DNA of 36,013 nt, from assembly GCA_035461765.1 (NCBI GenBank), contig DATHUY010000122.1, forward strand, positions 64,001 through 100,013, given 5' to 3'. Position 1 is the stretch's first letter. Each line of letters starts with the position of its first letter. Positions 1,762-29,520 of the stretch are shown here, one piece after another. Position numbers and translations under genes: made by a program. This DNA comes from Longimicrobiales bacterium. GTDB taxonomy: Bacteria; Gemmatimonadota; Gemmatimonadetes; Longimicrobiales; RSA9. Below the pieces are notes generated by a model, which saw nothing but the letters and a program-made list of their open reading frames with translations, made no database searches and had not been told where the DNA came from.

Positions 1762-1850
1762 CGAAACCCTCCGACAGGCATACCCGTTCCGGCGTGGAAA
1801 TCCGCCGGAATGCACAGCGGCACAACGCAAATGAGCGGTCGGAGCACACC

Positions 1851-6043: not shown

Positions 6044-9000
6044 ATGAGCACGTCCGAGAGGCGTGGGGTAGTGGACATGGAACCGATCGGCGGATCGGAA
6101 GGACCCGCCGTTTCATTGCTCGATGCAGTTGCGACGGAATTACGCGAACGTGCCGGCCCTGGTGAGGCGGCTCTGCTGGTGCGTTTCGGCGAGCTTTTTC
6201 TGGCCGACGCGACAGCGGAGTTCTTCGCCGAGCGCAGTGCCACGACGGTCGCATCGCTCGTAATGTCCGCATTCCGCCACATGCAGGCTGCGGCGCCGGC
6301 CGGGGCGCGGGTGAGCGTGTTGAGCCCGGAGCAGGAACAGGAGCCATGGAGCGCGCCCGTTACGGTGATACGGACGCACGCGGCGGAAGCACCGTTCATT
6401 GTGAGCACCATCCGGGAATACCTGCACGACCGACAGCTCCAGGTCGAGCATTTCCTGCACCCCGTATTGAAGGTGGTACGCGGCGCCGACGGCGCGATCG
6501 TTTCGATCGCGCCCGGCTCTGCGGGCGCACCGCTCGAGTCCATCGTGCACTGCGAGATCGCGCGTCTCGCCGAGACTGCGGTGAACGATGTCCGTGCAGG
6601 CCTCCAGTCCAGCCTCGATGACGTGGTGGCGGTGACGACGGATTTCCGGCCGATCATGGACGCCCTGACCCGGTCGACCACGATGCTGGAGGAATCGATC
6701 CACCGGCTGCCCGGCCGCGAGTCGGAGACGCGCGAGGCCCGTGAGTTCCTGCGCTGGCTGCGGCCCAACTTCGTGTTCCTGGCCTGTTGCGACTCGGGCA
6801 CGGTCGCCGTCGCTGGTGGCAACAGCGAGAGAGCGTCATCGAATCTGAGCCTGGGCCTGGCGCGCCAGCCGGAATGGGCGGACCGCATACGGGACGCGAC
6901 CGAACGTCCACCCCAGCCGGAAGCGTCGGCGGCCGAGGGCGCACCCATGTCGAGCGATGGCGTGCACCGCTGGCCGCCGCGCCTGCTGACCGTGACGCAG
7001 ACGGATGCCGAATCGACCGTCCACCGGCGCGTGCGCATGCATACCGTGGCGGTGCGTACGGTGGACGCGCAGAACCGCATTCTCGGCGAGCGCCATTTCC
7101 TGGGCCTGTTCCGAGCGCGGGCCTACCAGGAGGAGGCGGAGCACATCCCGATCCTCCGTCACAAGCTTGGACTCGTCCTTCATGCATCGGGCTGGCGCGA
7201 GGACTCGCACAACTATCGCGAGGCAATCAAGATCTTCAACTCGATGCCGAAGGAGGAGCTCTTCCTGGCGACGGCCGTCGACATCGGCCGCGAGATCGAA
7301 GCCATCCTGACGCAGTACTACACGCATGAAGTGAAGGTCATGCTGCGGCCTGACCCGACCGGTCGAACGGTTTCGGTCATGGTCATCATGCCCCGCGACC
7401 GCTACTCGGGACGTGCGCGGCGCGGCATTCAGACCGAGCTGATGCGCCAGCTCAACGCAACGCTCCTGAACACGAACCTGGTGATGGGCGGCGGTGAGCA
7501 GGCGCGGCTGCACTTCCAGTTCGCCGCCTCGCCCGACCGGCTGAAGGATGTGTCGCCCGCGCAGATCGAGCAGCGCGTGCGGTCCCTGATCCAGACCTGG
7601 GCGGATGTGCTCGAGGTCCGCCTCGCGCGCACTCACTCGCCGGAGGACGCACACCGCCAGGCGCAACGATGGGGTTCGGCGTTCAGTGAAGGATATCAGG
7701 CCGCCACGGAGCCGGAAGACGCGGTCGCCGATATCGAAGCGATCGAAGCCATGGAAGCCGCCGGTCGCGCGGTCGACCTGCGGCTGAGCCATGCGGAGCC
7801 CGCGGGCGGTGAGCGCGTGACACGCCTGACCGTCTACATGCGCGGCACACGCCTGGTGCTGTCCGACGTCATGCCCGGCCTCGAGAATGCCGGCCTGCGT
7901 GTCCTTTCGATGAGCCCGTTCGAAGCGACGGGCGACGGCGGCGCGACGTTCATCTATATCTTCGCGGTCCAGGACGCCGCCCGGCAGCCCATCGATCTCG
8001 ATGCGCGCGGCGCCGTCCTCGCCGAATTGCTGCTGGCCGTCGGTGCGGGCGAGACCACGAGCGACGGCCTCAATGCGCTCGTGCTTCATGCCGGCCTGGC
8101 GTGGCGTGAGGTCGACGTGCTCCGCGCGTACTGCGAGTACGCCTTCCAGCTGAAGCTGGCACCGGCGCGTGTGGCACTGTCAGGCGCGCTCCGCAAGCAT
8201 CCGCACGCGGCACGGCTGCTGGTGGCGATGTTCATCCAGAAGTTCGATCCGCACGCCTCGACGGATCCGGCCGAGCGGGAGGAACGCTTCGACTCGCTCT
8301 GCGGCGAGTTCATGGCTGCGCTCGAGAACGTGACGTCGCTTGCCGAGGACCGTGCGCTGCGGCATCTGCTCGCCCTGCTGCGCGCCACCGTGCGCACCAA
8401 CTACTTCCTGAACGGCGGCGCACACCCCACCCGCACGTCCGGCGGCGTTCCGTACATTTCCATCAAGATCATGAGCGAGCAGCTGCAGTCGCTCGTGCCA
8501 AGCCGGCTGCGTGCCGAAGTCTGGGTGCAGTCGGCCCGCATGGCCGGCGTGCACCTGCGCCGCGGCCCCGTCTCGCGCGGCGGGCTCCGCCACAGCGACC
8601 GGCCGGATGACCTGCGCACCGAAGTGCTCGGTCTCGTGCGCACCCAGTCCGTGAAGAATTGCGTGATCGTGCCGGCGGGCTCGAAGGGCGGCTTCGTCGT
8701 GCGGCGCCACCGCTCCGATCCGCAGGCGGCTGCGGCTGAAGTGGTGGCTCAGTACCGCACGCTGATCCGCGGCTTGCTCGATGTCACCGACAACCTCGGC
8801 GAGCAGGGTGTCATGCGGCCCGCCGACCTGGTCGTGCATGACGGCCCGGACCCGTATCTCGTCGTCGCTGCCGACAAGGGCACGGCAAAGTTCTCCGACG
8901 TGGCGAATGAGGTCGCGGCCGAGTACAGATTCTGGCTAGGCGATGCGTTCGCATCGGGCGGCTCCAACGGCTACGACCACAAGGGTGTGGGCATCACCGC

Positions 9001-10972
9001 CCGCGGCGCGTGGGTGTGCGTGCGTCGCCACTTCCGCGAGCTCGGTATCGATACCCAGACTGAGCCGTTCACCGTCGTCGGCATCGGTGACATGAGCGGT
9101 GATGTGTTCGGCAACGGCATGCTGCTCTCGCCCGAGATCCGGCTGATTGCCGCGTTCGACCATCGCCACATCTTCGTCGACCCGACGCCCGACGCGGCGG
9201 CGTCATTCGCCGAACGGCAGCGCCTCTTCGAGCTCGGCCGCTCGAGCTGGCTCGACTACGATGCATCGCTCCTCAGCGAGGGAGGCTTCATCGTGCCGCG
9301 CGGCATCAAGTCCATCGAGCTGCAGCCAGCCGCGGCCGCCGCACTCGGCGTGGCCGACAATGAACGCCGCATGGACGGTGAAACGCTCGTGCGCTCCGTA
9401 CTGCGCGCGCCCGTCGACCTGCTGTGGAACGGCGGCATCGGTACGTACGTGAAGGCCCCGGAGGAGCGGCACGCCGACGCGGGCGACAGTGCCAACGACG
9501 CCGTACGTATCGACGCATCGGACCTGCGCTGCCGCGTGCTCGGCGAGGGTGGCAATCTCGGGCTGACCCAGAGGGCTCGCGTCCGCTTCGCGCTGAACGG
9601 CGGCCTCTGCTATACCGATGCAATCGACAATTCCGGCGGCGTCGACATGTCCGACCGCGAAGTCAACCTGAAGATCCTGCTGAATGCAGCCATTTCGGAG
9701 GGCCGCCTCGAAGCGGACGCACGCAACCGGCTGTTGCACGAGCTCACCGATGCCGTTACCGAACGCGTGCTCGAAGACAACAGGTCGCAGAGCCTTGCGA
9801 TCTCCCTCGATGTTCGCCGTGCCGCCGAAGGATTCGAGGATTTCCACGGCCTGATGGTCGCGTTCGAGCGTAACCGCGTGATGGATCGCGCAGGCGAAGC
9901 GCTGCCGACGCTGGAGGATCTGAGTGAGCGGCGCGCCCACGGGCAGTCGCTCACCCGTCCGGAGCTGGCCGTACTGCTCGCGTACGCGAAACTCACGCTC
10001 AAGCCAGCGCTCATCGCCGGCAGCGTCCTCGACGATCCCGCCATGAACGAGTACCTGCTCAGCTACTTCCCGGCCGACGCCGTGGAAGTCGCGGGCACGG
10101 ACGCGCTCTCGGGGCACCGTCTGCGGCGTGACATCATCGCCACGCAGCTGGCGAACGAGATGATCGATCTGATGGGCGTCACGTTCCTGCATCGCCTCAC
10201 CCGCGACACGGGGCAGAGCGAAGCGGCCGCGGCGCGTGCCTGGTTCATCGCTTCACGTCTTTCGGGTGCACCGGAGCTGCGCGCACAGCTCGCCACACTC
10301 GAGGGGCGGCTGCCGGCTGACGTCATCTATCGCTGGCTGCTCGGCCTTGCCCGGGTCCTCGAACGCACCACGCGCTGGATCCTGGCCAATGTCGACGCCA
10401 GCGCACCGATCGACGATGTCATTGAGCAATATCTCGATGGTCTGCGTGAGCTGCGCGGTGACTTCCGCGCGATCGTGGTGGGAGCGGACCGGGATCTGTT
10501 CGAGGCGCGCGTTGCGGAAGCGCGCGCGCTGACGGAGCGCGACGACCTGGCAGCGTCCATCATCACGCTGCGCTTCTTCGACCAGCTCATGGAGATACTG
10601 ACCGTCGCCCGGGAGTCCGGGCGTTCCGCCGTGCGAGTCGGCCGCAGCTACTACCTCGCCTCCGAGCTCCTCGGTGTGCCGCGCCTGCGCGAGGCGATCT
10701 TCGACGCCGCCGGCGACAGCCGCTGGGACCAGCGTGTAGCGCAGTCGCTCGATGAGGACCTCGGCCGCGCACACCGTGCGCTGACCACGGCTGCGGTGAG
10801 CGCGGGCGGCGATGACGAGCCGGTCGATGACCTCATCGCCCGTGTCGCCGCCCGCAATGCGCCGATGCTCGACGCATACCGCGCACTGCTCGACGACATC
10901 GCCTCCGATGATCGGCCGTCGCTGGCCGCGCTCATCATTGCAGTGCGCGAGCTCGGAGCCTACTCGACGTAG
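6044..10972 (+). CDS. NAD-specific glutamate dehydrogenase, large (about 180 kDa) type
   Basis: At 1642 residues this has the length of the large-type NAD-GDHs, which oxidise L-glutamate to 2-oxoglutarate and ammonia in the cytoplasm. The start ATG at 6044 follows a strong GGAGAAGGA. Residues 1-700 form the family's long N-terminal region with ACT-like segments (for example RMHTVAVRTVDAQNRILGERHF). The catalytic core follows: SVKNCVIVPAGSKGGFVVRR with the substrate-binding Lys near residue 881, then DKGTAKFSDVANE, SGGSNGYDHKGVGITARGAW, and the dinucleotide-binding VVGIGDMSGDVFGNGM near residue 1013. The C-terminal helical domain (about 1200-1640) is intact. It is a lone gene with its own promoter region (5791-6043), and its stop overlaps that of the convergent lipoprotein gene by 13 bp. 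Likely role is catabolic glutamate use; the N-terminal region in relatives confers allosteric control. Confidence 0.96.
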   Translation: MSTSERRGVVDMEPIGGSEGPAVSLLDAVATELRERAGPGEAALLVRFGELFLADATAEFFAERSATTVASLVMSAFRHMQAAAPAGARVSVLSPEQEQEPWSAPVTVIRTHAAEAPFIVSTIREYLHDRQLQVEHFLHPVLKVVRGADGAIVSIAPGSAGAPLESIVHCEIARLAETAVNDVRAGLQSSLDDVVAVTTDFRPIMDALTRSTTMLEESIHRLPGRESETREAREFLRWLRPNFVFLACCDSGTVAVAGGNSERASSNLSLGLARQPEWADRIRDATERPPQPEASAAEGAPMSSDGVHRWPPRLLTVTQTDAESTVHRRVRMHTVAVRTVDAQNRILGERHFLGLFRARAYQEEAEHIPILRHKLGLVLHASGWREDSHNYREAIKIFNSMPKEELFLATAVDIGREIEAILTQYYTHEVKVMLRPDPTGRTVSVMVIMPRDRYSGRARRGIQTELMRQLNATLLNTNLVMGGGEQARLHFQFAASPDRLKDVSPAQIEQRVRSLIQTWADVLEVRLARTHSPEDAHRQAQRWGSAFSEGYQAATEPEDAVADIEAIEAMEAAGRAVDLRLSHAEPAGGERVTRLTVYMRGTRLVLSDVMPGLENAGLRVLSMSPFEATGDGGATFIYIFAVQDAARQPIDLDARGAVLAELLLAVGAGETTSDGLNALVLHAGLAWREVDVLRAYCEYAFQLKLAPARVALSGALRKHPHAARLLVAMFIQKFDPHASTDPAEREERFDSLCGEFMAALENVTSLAEDRALRHLLALLRATVRTNYFLNGGAHPTRTSGGVPYISIKIMSEQLQSLVPSRLRAEVWVQSARMAGVHLRRGPVSRGGLRHSDRPDDLRTEVLGLVRTQSVKNCVIVPAGSKGGFVVRRHRSDPQAAAAEVVAQYRTLIRGLLDVTDNLGEQGVMRPADLVVHDGPDPYLVVAADKGTAKFSDVANEVAAEYRFWLGDAFASGGSNGYDHKGVGITARGAWVCVRRHFRELGIDTQTEPFTVVGIGDMSGDVFGNGMLLSPEIRLIAAFDHRHIFVDPTPDAAASFAERQRLFELGRSSWLDYDASLLSEGGFIVPRGIKSIELQPAAAAALGVADNERRMDGETLVRSVLRAPVDLLWNGGIGTYVKAPEERHADAGDSANDAVRIDASDLRCRVLGEGGNLGLTQRARVRFALNGGLCYTDAIDNSGGVDMSDREVNLKILLNAAISEGRLEADARNRLLHELTDAVTERVLEDNRSQSLAISLDVRRAAEGFEDFHGLMVAFERNRVMDRAGEALPTLEDLSERRAHGQSLTRPELAVLLAYAKLTLKPALIAGSVLDDPAMNEYLLSYFPADAVEVAGTDALSGHRLRRDIIATQLANEMIDLMGVTFLHRLTRDTGQSEAAAARAWFIASRLSGAPELRAQLATLEGRLPADVIYRWLLGLARVLERTTRWILANVDASAPIDDVIEQYLDGLRELRGDFRAIVVGADRDLFEARVAEARALTERDDLAASIITLRFFDQLMEILTVARESGRSAVRVGRSYYLASELLGVPRLREAIFDAAGDSRWDQRVAQSLDEDLGRAHRALTTAAVSAGGDDEPVDDLIARVAARNAPMLDAYRALLDDIASDDRPSLAALIIAVRELGAYST

Positions 10973-21554: not shown

Positions 21555-23153
21555 TCACATGCCTGTGAGCTCGGCTGCGGGCAGGTGCAGCAGGAAGACG
21601 CTGCCACCGCCTTGCCGCGGCTCATACTCGACCTCGCCGCCCTGTGCTCGGGCGAGCTGGCGCGCGATGGCGAGGCCCAGCCCCGTGCCGGGCGAATCCG
21701 GGGGTGCACCGCGGCGACGGAAAAACGGTTCAAAGATGCGGTCGGCCTCGCCTGACGGAACGCCGGGACCCCGGTCGAGGACTGCCAGTGTCAGTCGCTC
21801 CCCGTCAGTGCGCACCTGCAGCCGCACGGGTGACGTTGACGGTGAATATTTCAGAGCGTTCTCCAGCAGGTTGACGAGAATCCGAAGAACGTGCCGAAGG
21901 TCAAACCGCCCTACTGCAATCCTGTCGCCGTTGCCCAGCGAAACCTGTATGCGGTCTGCACCGGGCACGCCCGAGAGTCTCTGTAGCGCCGCTCCGATCA
22001 CGTCCTCCGCTGCAACGATCTCGGACCGCAGGTGCAATGCGCCGGCATTGATGCTGGAGAGGTCGAGCAGATCGGCGACCAGCCGGTTCAGCCGGTCCGC
22101 CTCCTCGACGATCGTATGCGCACGTTCATCGCCGCTTTCCGTGAGCTCATGGGCGAGGGCACGGATCGTCGTGAGTGGAGTTCGGATGTCATGCGAGACC
22201 GACGCCAGAAAGGCGTCCTTGAGGCGATCGGCCTCGTGCAGTGATTCCGCGCGCTCTTCTTCGGACACCAGGCGAACACGTTCGACGCCGAGCGCTGCGT
22301 AATAGGACAGGACGGCGGCGAAGCGTTGCTGTGACGCGTCCAGAGCAATCGGCTTGTGATCGGCAATGCGCAGGACGCCTACGGCCCTGCCGCGGATCTT
22401 GAGCGGGATGATGAGCTCCGTGTCAGCGCCGGTGAGGGGGAAAAGCATGTCGCGGGCGGATGCCGCGCTGCTCTTTGCGAGGTGCGTGGTGCCGTCCGGC
22501 CATTCGAGTGCAGAGCGGCCGCTCAAATCGATTTGATTCACATCCGTCTTCAGGGTGAGGGCGGCTCCGCTCGGCGAAGCAGCGTGCGCGATTCGCTCCA
22601 GGTCGCCGGACCCGGGGTCGCGCAGATACATCTCGCACACCGCGATTCGCAGCGTCGCCTGCAGTACACGCGCAATCGCCTGAACGGCTTCGTCAGCGCG
22701 ACCGACATTGAGGGTTTCGGCGCCGAGAGTCGACAGCCGATCCAGCTCATCCGCCCGCTGCCGTGCTTCCTCGGCCTGGTGCTGCGCGCGATACAACAGC
22801 TGAGCCGCGACGCCGCCGGTCACGAGGAACGTGAGAAGCACCAGCCAGTCGAGCGGGTTCTCAACGACGAACGTATGGTAGGGTGACAACAGGAAGAAGT
22901 TGAAGCAGAGGAAGCAGAAGATAGCCAGCAGGAAACCGAACCTCCTGCCATGTCGCGCGCTTCCTCCGAGCACGATGAGCAGGTAGACGGTGACCATATG
23001 CGCCTTGTCGAGCTCTGCGCGCAGCCACCACAGGGCAGCCGTGGCTGCAGCCACGATCCCGAACCACCGGGCCAGCGACAGGGCGGGAGCACCCAGGAGA
23101 CCGCGAGTGCGGCCGCCGCTTTCAGGGATCGGCGTTGAATCGGTATCCGACAC
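21555..23153 (-). CDS. Sensor histidine kinase, truncated KdpD-like (DUF4118, GAF, HisKA, HATPase)
   Basis: A 532-residue kinase starting at GTG 23153, overlapping the response-regulator gene by 32 bp. Four membrane segments (about 27-45, 53-66, 73-92, 102-120) form the DUF4118-like unit seen in KdpD. A GAF-like domain follows (about 140-290), then HisKA with SVSHDIRTPL (His 321) and HATPase with NLLENALKYS, DRGPGVP, FEPFFR and GTGLGLAI. The N-terminal KdpD and universal-stress-protein domains of full KdpD are absent, so any ligand or K+ sensing must come through the membrane unit or GAF domain. It is upstream of ktrB and ktrA rather than kdpFABC. Confidence 0.92.
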   Translation of the reverse strand: MSDTDSTPIPESGGRTRGLLGAPALSLARWFGIVAAATAALWWLRAELDKAHMVTVYLLIVLGGSARHGRRFGFLLAIFCFLCFNFFLLSPYHTFVVENPLDWLVLLTFLVTGGVAAQLLYRAQHQAEEARQRADELDRLSTLGAETLNVGRADEAVQAIARVLQATLRIAVCEMYLRDPGSGDLERIAHAASPSGAALTLKTDVNQIDLSGRSALEWPDGTTHLAKSSAASARDMLFPLTGADTELIIPLKIRGRAVGVLRIADHKPIALDASQQRFAAVLSYYAALGVERVRLVSEEERAESLHEADRLKDAFLASVSHDIRTPLTTIRALAHELTESGDERAHTIVEEADRLNRLVADLLDLSSINAGALHLRSEIVAAEDVIGAALQRLSGVPGADRIQVSLGNGDRIAVGRFDLRHVLRILVNLLENALKYSPSTSPVRLQVRTDGERLTLAVLDRGPGVPSGEADRIFEPFFRRRGAPPDSPGTGLGLAIARQLARAQGGEVEYEPRQGGGSVFLLHLPAAELTGM

Positions 23154-23832
23154 CGGGCTCCGTGATGATCAGGGCGGGTCTGAGCGAGTCTTCCTCGATC
23201 TTTCGTCGCAGGTTGGCGATGTGGACACGCAGATACGACTGAGCGTCGCCTGCCGCATGGCCCCATACTTCACGGAAGATCTGCGGGTGGGTGAGTGTTC
23301 GACCGGCATGCTTCACGAAAGCGCGCAGCAGGTCCCACTCGGTGGGTGTGAGATGAATCGGCTGCCCGCCGCGACTCACCGTTCTGCGCGCTGTGTCGAT
23401 CAGGAGAGTGCCGATGGCGACCGGGGCGCGGCTCGGCTGCGACTCGCCCATCCGCGTGCGCCTGAGCTGAGCGCGCACGCGCGCCTGGAACTCCACGGTG
23501 CTGAAGGGCTTCGTCACGTAATCGTCAGCCCCCGCATCGAGCAGGGCCACCTTTTCGCTGTCGGAATGGCGCGCAGACAGGACGATGATCGGCGCGGTCG
23601 ACCAGCGGCGGATCTCGCGACAGACGCTCACACCGGGTATATCGGGAAGCCCGAGATCGAGCACAATGAGCCCCGGACGCTGCGCGGCCGCGACGTCGAT
23701 GCCCTCGTGGCCGGTGGTGGCCTCCAGCACCCTCGCGTCCGCCGCCAATGCGTTCTTCACCACCCGCCGGATCTGCGGCTCGTCATCGATGACCAGGATG
23801 GTGGCGCGCATCGGCTCGGCATTCGAGGGCAT
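23122..23832 (-). CDS. KdpE-like OmpR-family response regulator
   Basis: A 236-residue regulator: receiver domain with acidic pocket IDDE (15-18), phosphoacceptor Asp 59 in VLDLGLPD, Lys 108 in YVTKPF; then an OmpR-type winged helix (LTPTEWDLLRAFVKHAGRTLTHPQIFREVWG, SYLRVHIANLRRKIEED, TEPGVGYRF). The C-terminal block closely follows KdpE. The start ATG 23832 has only a modest AGG upstream; the ATG at 23811 is a weaker alternative. Its stop overlaps the kinase start, giving translational coupling. Probable target: the ktrB promoter repeats at 21499-21517. Confidence 0.95.
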   Translation of the reverse strand: MPSNAEPMRATILVIDDEPQIRRVVKNALAADARVLEATTGHEGIDVAAAQRPGLIVLDLGLPDIPGVSVCREIRRWSTAPIIVLSARHSDSEKVALLDAGADDYVTKPFSTVEFQARVRAQLRRTRMGESQPSRAPVAIGTLLIDTARRTVSRGGQPIHLTPTEWDLLRAFVKHAGRTLTHPQIFREVWGHAAGDAQSYLRVHIANLRRKIEEDSLRPALIITEPGVGYRFNADP

Positions 23833-26133: not shown

Positions 26134-26748
26134 CTAGGTCGCTTGCGGGGTCGCCGGCCCGGCCCGCTCGATCGAGGCGAATCTGAGAAGCTCACGTACC
26201 ATGCGGTCCGCCGTCCCCGCGTAGTCCGCTTCGTATTTCCGGAGCAGTTCATCCTTCGAGGGTTCCGAGCCCTTGCTCTGGCGTTCCCAGAGGACCGACA
26301 GCGTGGCATAGGGTGGTATCAGCAGGCCGATGCCGTTGAAGAAGTTGCACAGGGCGCCAATGATGGTCTGTGCGCCATCCGAATCGCCCGTGATCACGAT
26401 CCCACCGACCTTCCCCTCGAGCGGCGATGGCTTTCCGGCCATGACGTCATCGTGCAGCTCGTCGAGCCGTTCAATGATGCGCTGGATCAGCGACGAGTGG
26501 TTATTCCACCAGATCGGTGTAGCGACAATGATGATGTCGCTTGCAACCACTCCCTGGAGAATGTCCGGCCACTCGTCGCCCTCTCCCACGTCCGAGCAGG
26601 TACCGGCCGGTATCGCGCGATCGACCAGTCGCACCGTCCTGCACTCCACCCCCTTCTGCTCCAGACGCCGGGAGAGGAACTCGCTCAGCGTAGCCGTGTT
26701 GGACAGACCGGTCTTCTTGAGCGTGCCGACCAGGATTGTTGCTCTCAC
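26134..26748 (-). CDS. Flavodoxin-like NADPH-dependent FMN reductase family protein
   Basis: A 204-residue protein starting at GTG 26748 with a strong AGGGAGAGGA. The flavodoxin fold is clear: ILVGTLKKTGLSNT (phosphate loop for FMN), IIIVATPIWWNNHSSLIQRIIERLDEL (the TPIWW-N...RLD motif of FMN reductases), and a later strand-turn GGIVITGDSDGAQT. Cytoplasmic oxidoreductase or quinone/azo-type reductase; exact substrate unknown. It is 36 bp downstream of the membrane-protein gene, likely the second gene of an operon reading from the minus-strand GGAACC-N16-GGTTCGTCC element at 27304-27334. That links it to the ECF sigma unit and a redox-stress role. Confidence 0.9.
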   Translation of the reverse strand: MRATILVGTLKKTGLSNTATLSEFLSRRLEQKGVECRTVRLVDRAIPAGTCSDVGEGDEWPDILQGVVASDIIIVATPIWWNNHSSLIQRIIERLDELHDDVMAGKPSPLEGKVGGIVITGDSDGAQTIIGALCNFFNGIGLLIPPYATLSVLWERQSKGSEPSKDELLRKYEADYAGTADRMVRELLRFASIERAGPATPQAT

Positions 26749-26784: not shown

Positions 26785-27234
26785 TCACCGCACCGCTGCC
26801 GCGTGGCGCGGGGCGGTGATGTCGCGCGTGGGGACCGGGCCATAGACGAGGGCCAGAACCGCGCCGTAGGCGAGGTGGCCAATGAGACTGCCCATCGCCA
26901 GTGCCGCCGAGCCCGATAGCACCGGCATTCCCATCATGGGCATCACGACGAACTGCGCCGCGAGGAATGGTGCGATACCATAGAGCGCGCCGCGCAGCGC
27001 CAGCGGACCGGGGATCCAGGGCGCGATGACCGCATAGCCCACGGCGAGGATCGTTCCAATCATGAGATGGGCGGCCCACCCGAGCAGGATGTTTCCGCCC
27101 ATGGCACCGGCGAGCATCACAGCCGGGTTCATGGAGGGTATCCCCATCATGGGCGCGGCCCAGAGACCGATTGCGGTCATGACCAGCGTTGCGATGATGC
27201 CCGCTGCGGCGGCTTTCGAGAAGTTGATTCTCAT
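26785..27234 (-). CDS. Small integral membrane protein (DUF6789-like)
   Basis: A 149-residue protein with ATG 27234 preceded by GGAGAACACC. Four hydrophobic helices are visible (about 10-30, 38-72, 80-102, 108-130) with many Gly/Ala/Met residues and few charges. The Met-rich segments (AAPMMGIPSMNPAVMLAGAM, VVMPMMGMPV) might touch metal ions, but no such role is established. The pattern fits the DUF6789 class of small membrane proteins. It is the first gene of the operon with the FMN-reductase-like gene and is divergent from the ECF sigma gene, with copies of the same promoter-like motif pointing each way. Confidence 0.82.
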   Translation of the reverse strand: MRINFSKAAAAGIIATLVMTAIGLWAAPMMGIPSMNPAVMLAGAMGGNILLGWAAHLMIGTILAVGYAVIAPWIPGPLALRGALYGIAPFLAAQFVVMPMMGMPVLSGSAALAMGSLIGHLAYGAVLALVYGPVPTRDITAPRHAAAVR

Positions 27235-27303: not shown

Positions 27304-27334
27304 GGACGAACCGTGTTGCTGAGAGGAAGGTTCC
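27304..27334 (-). promoter_or_regulatory. GGAACC-N16-GGTTCGTCC element, minus copy (ECF-type promoter?)
   Basis: Read on the minus strand: GGAACC, 16 nt, GGTTCGTCC, ending 69 bp before the membrane-protein ATG. GGAAC at -35 and GGTT about 17 bp later fit ECF/EcfG-type promoters. The identical element occurs on the other strand at 27371-27401. Confidence 0.65.
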
Positions 27335-27370
27335 AGCACGGTACGGGGCCACCTTCGAAAACCGGGGCCG

Positions 27371-27401
27371 GGAACCGATCGGCGGGGCTGCCGGTTCGTC
27401 C
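27371..27401 (+). promoter_or_regulatory. GGAACC-N16-GGTTCGTCC element, plus copy
   Basis: Same 15 conserved bases and same 16-nt spacer as the minus copy, 36 bp apart from it, 59 bp before the sigma-gene ATG. This would place the ECF gene under its own type of promoter. Confidence 0.65.
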
Positions 27402-27460
27402 AGGGTAACCGCAACGGGAGCACATGTGGGCCTGACATCGGAAGCCGACGTGCAGACGCA

Positions 27461-28225
27461 GTGAGCATGGACCGCATTCGTGCCACGATGATGAAGGCTT
27501 GGGCGCATTTGAACGGCAGTGCTGTCCGGCAGCGCAGTGATCCGCCCCGTGCCGGTCGGCCGCGCGATCCTGGCGTTACTGTGCAGCCTGCCGAGACACG
27601 GCCGCTCGGCAAGCCGGGCTTCGCCGAGGAGGCGCTGCCGTGGATGGACGCAGTGCACCGCTTCGCGCTGCGCCTGACACGCGGCGGCGCGGAGGCCGAG
27701 GACCTCGTGCAGGAGACGTATCTGCGCGCGTTCAGGTCGTGGGATCAGTTCGAGCGCGGCACCAACTGTCGCTCATGGCTCTTCACTATCTGCAGGAACA
27801 CCCATCTGCACGAACGCGAACGGGCCAGCTCCCGCTACGAGATTACCGAAACGGATGCGGGGGGCGCTGACAACGCGACCCGCTCACTGGTGGATCAGCG
27901 GGCGCTTGCCGCGCAGTCGCCCGACGATTTCTTCGAACAGATCGTGGATGAACGGTTGCTGGAGGCCGTTGATGCGCTGCCGGAGGAGTTCCGGGAGACG
28001 TCGATCCATCTCATAGTCCACCTCCGTAGCCGGCGTGCAGGTCCTGTGAACCTCTGGTCATGGAGCCGAACCGGAGAGTTGCCGCAGCGGTTCCTCCATA
28101 CGGGCGGCCGGCGTCGGGCTCTTCCGGCACGTGGCCGCGGTATTGCTGGTCTGGTGCTGACGGGTGTCGACAAGTACCGCGAATCCTCGCCGTGGATCCG
28201 GTCACGGCCGGGGTGCACACTGTAG
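27461..28225 (+). CDS. ECF sigma factor gene lacking region 4.2 (likely disrupted)
   Basis: A reading frame of 254 codons. Sigma region 2 is intact (about 60-125: [33 protein letters not shown], then [11 protein letters not shown]), which binds core polymerase and the -10. The linker and start of region 4 follow ([24 protein letters not shown]), a typical ECF sequence. After codon 185 or so the frame continues with no homology to sigma: instead of the expected HTH there is an Arg/Leu/Trp-rich tail ([15 protein letters not shown]...). Neither other plus frame nor the reverse strand restores an HTH. The break suggests a deletion that removed region 4.2, which reads the -35. The start is uncertain (ATG 27461 has a weak ribosome-binding site). 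The element at 28067-28097 sits in this tail. It could be a pseudogene or an altered protein. Confidence 0.75.
28067..28097 (+). promoter_or_regulatory. GAACC-N16-GGTTCCTCC element ahead of the hydrolase-OsmC gene
   Basis: CGAACC, 16 nt, GGTTCCTCC: same GAACC, spacer length, GGTTC and final TCC as the two upstream copies. It lies 149 bp before the ATG at 28246 and inside the tail of the sigma frame. The dyad shape also fits, less well, on the other strand. Confidence 0.55.
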
Positions 28226-28245: not shown

Positions 28246-29520
28246 ATGGTCGATCAGAGAATCACGTTCCCCGGCGCCAGCGGGGCGGAACTCGCCGCCC
28301 GCCTGAGTCTGCCGCCTGACGGCATCGTTCGGGCGTGCGCCCTGTTCGCGCACTGCTTCACGTGCTCGAAGGATCTGAAGCCGATTGTGAACATCAGCCG
28401 TGCGATGACGCAGCAGGGGATGGCGGTCATGCGGTTCGACTTCACCGGCCTCGGTGAAAGTGAAGGCGATTTTGCCGGCACCACGTTCTCGTCGAACATC
28501 GAGGACCTGGTCGCAGCGGCCGAGTTCATGGAACGTGAGTTCGAAGCGCCCGCCATTCTCGTGGGTCATTCTCTCGGCGGTGCGGCGGTGCTTCAGGCCG
28601 CGACACGCCTGCCATCGGTACGCGCCGTCGCCACCATCGCCGCGCCGTTCGACCCGGCGCACGTAACGAACCTGTTCGTGGACGCTCTCCCGGATATCGA
28701 CGCCAGCGGCTCCGCCGACGTCGTGCTCGCCGGACGTCGGTTCACGCTGAGCCGCGACTTCGTGCGTGACCTCGACCAGCACAACGTGGAGCAAACGCTG
28801 GAATCACTGGGGCGCCCTCTTCTGATCCTCCATTCGCCTGTCGACAATATCGTCGGTATCGAGAATGCGGCGCTGATCTACAAGGCTGCGCGGCATCCGA
28901 AGAGCTTCATCTCCCTCGACGATGCGGATCATCTGCTGATGAAGGAGTCCGATTCGCTGTATGTCGGGACGCTGCTGGCAGCGTGGGCCGCACGGTACAT
29001 CGACGCCCCGCCCCAGCCTGACACCGTAGAGAAGCTGCGCGCCGATAATCGCGTCGCCGTTCGTACCGCGGCCGGCGCTTTCAGAACCGAGATTCTCGCC
29101 CGCGGACACGCGCTCATCGCAGACGAGCCGAAGGCAGTTGGCGGCGATGACCTCGGACCGACGCCCTACGATCTGCTGGCGGCTGCACTGGGGGCGTGCA
29201 CCACCATGACTCTGCGGATGTATGCCGATCGCAAGGAGTGGCCGCTGGAAGAAGCAGTGGTACAGCTCAGGCATTCGCGCGTGCATGCGGAGGATGAGGA
29301 GCGCTGTGAAGACGGCGCGGACGCGCGGATGGATCGGCTCGACCGCGAGCTGACGCTCGTCGGTCCCCTGACTGCTGATCAGCGAGAGCGACTGCTGGAG
29401 ATCGCAGACCGCTGTCCGGTGCACCGCACGCTCAGCGCCGGCGTACGGATCTCGACGCAGCTGCACGATGCTGCTGCAGGCGAGGAGGCAGAGCCGGCGA
29501 TCCCACGTTCAGAATCCTGA
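28246..29520 (+). CDS. Bifunctional alpha/beta hydrolase-OsmC family protein
   Basis: A 424-residue fusion starting at ATG 28246 (GGAGC 8 nt upstream). Residues 1-255 are an alpha/beta hydrolase with nucleophile Ser109 in GHSLGG, Asp200 in SPVDNIV and His229 in DADHLL. Residues 265-410 are an OsmC-like domain with redox Cys318 in GACTTMT and Cys390 in CPVHRTL, the pair that reduces organic hydroperoxides in the Ohr/OsmC family. Known hydrolase-OsmC fusions occur in diverse bacteria; the combined role is not settled. No signal peptide, so cytoplasmic. It is downstream of the GAACC-N16-GGTTC element and followed by a hairpin. Confidence 0.95.

Follow-up and report, generated by a model that had tools for sequence, protein, structure and literature searches.

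We consider it likely that a second SigR/RsrA-like module has decayed at the locus described here, leaving behind SigR/SigH-type promoters that are probably served by an intact sigma/anti-sigma pair encoded on another contig (C52) of the same genome, within a thiol/oxidative-stress regulon. The sites with their conservation and orientation, the truncation of the sigma gene and the intact paralogous pair can all be read directly in the DNA. The system is of a known kind and apparently unstudied in its phylum, Gemmatimonadota; it is accompanied by a decayed paralogue. Table 1 lists the features of the locus in the coordinates of the window, by which we mean the whole 36,013-nt stretch that was analysed.

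Table 1. Features of the locus in window coordinates
Feature	Position	Strand	Description
Copy 1	27307..27334	-	GGAACC-N16-GGTTCG (GTCC); predicted SigR/SigH-type promoter, toward DUF6789/FMN-reductase genes
Copy 2	27371..27398	+	GGAACC-N16-GGTTCG (TCC); predicted SigR/SigH-type promoter, toward sigma gene
Copy 3	28067..28094	-	perfect minus-strand site GGAACCGCTGCGGCAACTCTCCGGTTCG, antisense to sigma remnant
ECF sigma gene remnant	27467..28007	+	N-terminal extension, region 2, linker; homologous to 1306-1849 of the L063 orthologue
Open frame past break	28008..28225	+	no region 4, flat codon-position GC, unmatched elsewhere in genome
DUF6789 membrane protein	26785..27234	-	PF20587; first gene of divergent unit
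NADPH-dependent FMN reductase family protein	26134..26748	-	PF03358
Alpha/beta hydrolase-OsmC fusion	28246..29520	+	PF12146, PF02566; downstream of copy 3

Three clustered sites and their promoter class

The motif GAACC-N16-GGTTC occurs exactly three times in the window, at 27308-27333, 27372-27397 and 28068-28093. A scan with spacers of 14-18 gave no further match, 0.14 matches being expected from shuffled sequences, and none of 100 shuffles reached three. This confirms the original prediction of three exact copies with a 16-nt spacer in 0.8 kb of a window otherwise empty of them. The genome-wide scan that it had called for was run as a pattern search of the 4.68-Mb genome and returned five matches to GGAAY-N17-GGTTSG, three of them inside this 0.8 kb, and two exact matches to the full 31-mer GGAACC-N16-GGTTCSTCC, namely copies 1 (-) and 2 (+). 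A Poisson estimate puts the probability of three sites within 788 bp at about 1e-10 to 1e-11, which rules out a chance origin of the cluster. The motif is rare genome-wide, with few strong extra sites, so the regulon is small or degenerate. Raw genome counts of GGAAC-N(12-24)-GTTCG were set aside, since GGAAC is common in genes and coding background dominates them; the reversed control for these counts differs in composition from the real pattern. Counts of one-mismatch sites were left out for the same coding background, nearly all of the examined sites falling within genes, and one exact site (C141:4058) was discounted as intragenic.

Written as GGAAC-N18-GTTC, the motif has the core and spacing of SigR/SigH-type promoters, and the window sites all fit the general pattern GGAA(T/C)-N18(17-19)-GTT. 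The SigR consensus of Streptomyces coelicolor is GGAAT-N18-GTT (PMC2375139), also given as GGAAT-N18-19-GTT, with hrdD and hrdB as SigR targets (PMC9205884); for SigH/SigE of Corynebacterium glutamicum it is GGAAC-N18-19-GTT, and the targets include sigB (PMC10012870). The S. coelicolor SigR-RsrA system resembles the present one in spacing, in the GTT of the -10 element, in its zinc anti-sigma, in its redox-type targets and in the control of primary-like sigma genes. However, its -35 element ends in T and ours in C, the phylum is another, and here one copy of the module lacks region 4 and the anti-sigma. The -35 element, spacer and -10 core of C. glutamicum SigH/SigE are identical to ours (e.g. 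GGAACC-N16-CGTT there), and the sigB target is a further likeness; differences lie in the -10, CGTT in C. glutamicum against GGTT(C) in our sites, and in the organism and accessory targets. EcfG promoters (GGAAC-N16/17-CGTT), at first taken as the closest type, share the GGAAC -35 and a GTT-type -10, but the sigma and anti-sigma relatives here are SigH/RsrA-like; no PhyR/NepR-type context was seen in the gene neighbourhood, and SigR/SigH (GGAAC/T-N18-GTT) is the nearer type. The assignment of the copies to ECF promoters of the SigR/SigH thiol/oxidative-stress type is well supported by spacing and sequence, by sites beside the closest homologues and by recurrence before a group-2 sigma gene (see below), in line with the redox-type regulon first proposed.

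Copies 1 and 2 lie on opposite strands and are divergent, as predicted. With its flanks, copy 1 reads GGAACCTTCCTCTCAGCAACACGGTTCGTCC on the minus strand, with about 73 nt separating its -10 end and the ATG at 27234; the FMN reductase gene follows the DUF6789 gene by 36 nt and probably shares its operon. Copy 2, GGAACCGATCGGCGGGGCTGCCGGTTCGTCC with flanks on the plus strand, has its GTT at 27394, and the ATG of the sigma gene is at 27467. These two copies stand upstream of genes, face them and are conserved with orthologues, while copy 3 is ambiguous in this respect. A weight matrix trained solely on sites outside this locus ranked the three copies highest in the window, at 17.4 bits each. For copy 3 this score belongs to the minus strand, the only one on which it matches GGAAY-N17-GGTTSG. 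On the plus strand, toward the hydrolase-OsmC gene, the site is CGAACC-N16-GGTTCC (CGAACC...GGTTCCTCC), without the GG, and scores 13.2 bits, a value that copy 2 also gives when read in its unused reverse direction. The 'S-TCC' alignment, from which a forward orientation had been proposed for copy 3, is thus the weaker one. Because the minus strand fits better, a role of copy 3 in hydrolase-OsmC expression is plausible, though weaker.

Elsewhere in the window, at 1763-1790 (-), there is one more promoter-like sequence (GGAACGGGTATGCCTGTCGGAGGGTTTC, 16.9 bits); it is possibly intergenic and close to where a sigma-54-type regulator gene (ORF 349-1893, -) begins. A DUF4118 (KdpD-like) sensor kinase and an OmpR-type regulator are encoded upstream of the locus, at 21555-23832 (-).

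The truncated sigma gene and the intact pair

The ECF sigma gene announced by the original prediction is one in part: its region 2 is intact, but the gene is truncated, which that prediction had no means of seeing. Nucleotide homology to the nearest sigma orthologue, L063 (JACQPS010000251.1, Gemmatimonadetes, 64% identity), ends at 28007, and codon-position GC is flat after 28009. In the window ORF Pfam recognises only Sigma70_r2, and the L063 and C52 sigmas have both regions 2 and 4; no remnant of region 4 was found after 28007 in other frames, by translation or tblastn. The best model for the remnant is TIGR02947 (SigH type), and the best solved relative of the L063 orthologue is M. tuberculosis SigH. 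The L063 sigma is followed by an RsrA-like anti-sigma, whereas the window sigma has no adjacent zinc-binding RsrA-like anti-sigma, so that the window copy lacks both the region 2 plus region 4 architecture and the anti-sigma of a SigR-RsrA module. Region 4 of sigma factors contacts the -35 element, and the window protein should therefore be unable to use these promoters: copy 2 precedes a sigma gene, yet the encoded sigma is without the region that reads the -35. With region 4 and the RsrA-like anti-sigma both missing, autoregulation by the adjacent sigma, held to be probable in the original prediction, seems unlikely.

An intact SigH-like sigma and RsrA-family anti-sigma, outside Actinobacteria, are encoded at 8876-9744 (-) of contig C52 (L077, G000:C52). 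This sigma has regions 2 and 4 and, over the part that both proteins have, shows 51% identity to the window sigma; its best model is TIGR02947, at 138 bits, under the actinobacterial cut-off of 251.55. The anti-sigma reaches 74.6 bits against TIGR03988 (NCBIfam 'mycothiol system anti-sigma-R'), passing the cut-off of 62.5. The pair thus has what defines a SigR-RsrA module, a sigma with regions 2 and 4 and an RsrA-family anti-sigma. Judging from these sequences, the C52 pair probably drives the surviving promoters. A point against this is the site upstream of the C52 sigma itself, GGAAT-N17-GTTCG, whose spacer is one base shorter. In one survey, the ECF12-type anti-sigma group was found only in Actinobacteria (PMC7406223).

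The break in the window sigma is abrupt, the genome is in 171 contigs and the L063 orthologue is intact with its anti-sigma. One could imagine, then, that the gene is whole in the organism, that its truncation is a metagenome assembly error and that the locus is a normal autoregulated SigR/RsrA-like operon. We think this unlikely: the assembly is 99.3% complete and its sole RsrA-like anti-sigma is that of C52, a relative of the downstream gene is preceded by such a promoter of its own, and the sequence after the junction, searched in the genome as a repeat or mobile element, is unique, with no repeat prone to misjoining. The remnant also retains 180 open codons, coding composition over region 2, an intact copy 2 promoter and, over the retained part, a dN/dS of 0.23 versus L063. 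The truncated protein might on these grounds still act as the region-2-only half of a split sigma, as in SigO-RsoA, or as an RNA polymerase competitor; this is quite improbable, however, as the dN/dS mostly records the time preceding the truncation, the sequence past 28009 does not look coding and no gene for a region-4-only partner was identified nearby.

Conservation in relatives and the dyad symmetry

Conservation next to orthologous ECF genes had been named as a check of the prediction, and L063 keeps both divergent sites at the same positions. The first (1098-1132), GGAACC-N16-GGTTCG toward a DsrE-like gene, matches copy 1 in its divergent position, and the second (1191-1225), GGAACT-N16-GGTTCG toward the sigma gene, is orthologous to copy 2. 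Both are retained although blastn of the window against the L063 intergenic DNA gave no alignment. Among the DUF6789 homologues found, the closest (69%, L150) has GGAACC-N16-GGTTCG immediately upstream, at 1464-1493, facing the gene; among those of the hydrolase-OsmC gene, the closest (66%, L085) has GGAACT-N16-GGTTG immediately upstream in forward orientation. The motif is absent from most of the more distant homologues of both. Moreover, GGAACC-N16-GGTTC lies upstream of a group-2 (primary-like) sigma gene of this genome (G000:C112:26290-26316, L003). GGAACY-N17/18-GTT precedes the group-2 sigma gene in 10 of the 11 family genomes, and exact GGAAC-N18-GTT occurs in 8 of 24 loci versus 0.1 in shuffles. 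This promoter mirrors the control of hrdD by SigR in Streptomyces and of sigB by SigH/SigE in Corynebacterium. Immediately upstream of the family's core SigR/RsrA-like sigmas the motif is mostly missing, some of these genes apparently lying inside operons, and they were not used as evidence. A site on contig C41 of the same genome (L022, 1501-1527), GGAACC-N16-GGATTC, lies within a methylmalonyl-CoA epimerase-like gene, some 140 nt ahead of thioredoxin; it was left uncounted, its -10 being mutated (GGATTC) and off consensus.

In one relative (L109, G117:C235, 2269-2300), a perfect GGAAC-N18-GTTCC palindrome separates an orthologous ECF gene from a gene divergent to it. This palindrome, and the near-perfect dyad form of all three window copies, with 21 bp between half-site centres, would suit an operator for a dimeric repressor or activator rather than a promoter, the alternative left open at the outset. 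We judge it quite unlikely: the conserved flanks have a direction, with GGAAC on the left and GTTCG on the right, and are aimed at genes both for copies 1 and 2 and for the L063 sites, the dyad is broken with GGAAC-N18-GTT kept in the L063 (+), L085 and group-2 sigma sites, and no repressor was recognised among the genes in 26.1-30.3 kb. The symmetry itself is explained by the promoter class, which is inherently near-palindromic since GGAAC and GTTCC are reverse complements. As the -35 (GGAAC) and the -10 (GTTCC/G) are reverse complements at N18, it is conceivable, if doubtful, that palindromic sites such as copy 3 and that of G117 fire both ways, one ECF sigma using two opposed promoters within 28 bp. 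Copy 3 would then yield OsmC mRNA in one direction and antisense RNA to the sigma remnant in the other.

A proposed decayed module and its meaning

We propose that copies 1 and 2 once worked as divergent promoters within an ancestral SigR/RsrA-like module, with one driving the sigma-anti-sigma operon and the other a redox-related gene set. A deletion would have taken sigma region 4 and the RsrA-like anti-sigma, bringing the truncated gene beside the hydrolase-OsmC gene. The remaining sites would most likely be served by the C52 sigma, released on oxidation of its zinc anti-sigma. Copy 1 would then direct transcription of the DUF6789 and FMN reductase-like genes, copy 2 that of the sigma remnant, and copy 3 that of the hydrolase-OsmC gene, as in L085, or an antisense RNA, or both; elsewhere in the genome the regulon would include the group-2 sigma factor. 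From the arrangement of these sequences we infer that transcription occurs at the sites, that the C52 sigma recognises them, that the trigger is oxidative and that the break is a true deletion and not a misassembly.

Two points are less ordinary here: region 4 has been lost next to promoters that are conserved, and palindromic sites may be used in both directions. The naive reading, in which a sigma gene next to a motif means autoregulation, is corrected here: the locus offers a concrete case in which promoters have outlasted the sigma factor that belonged to them and a paralogue has probably taken them over. More broadly, our analysis would extend to Gemmatimonadota both the SigR/SigH-type thiol-stress promoter code and its connection with a primary-like sigma gene.
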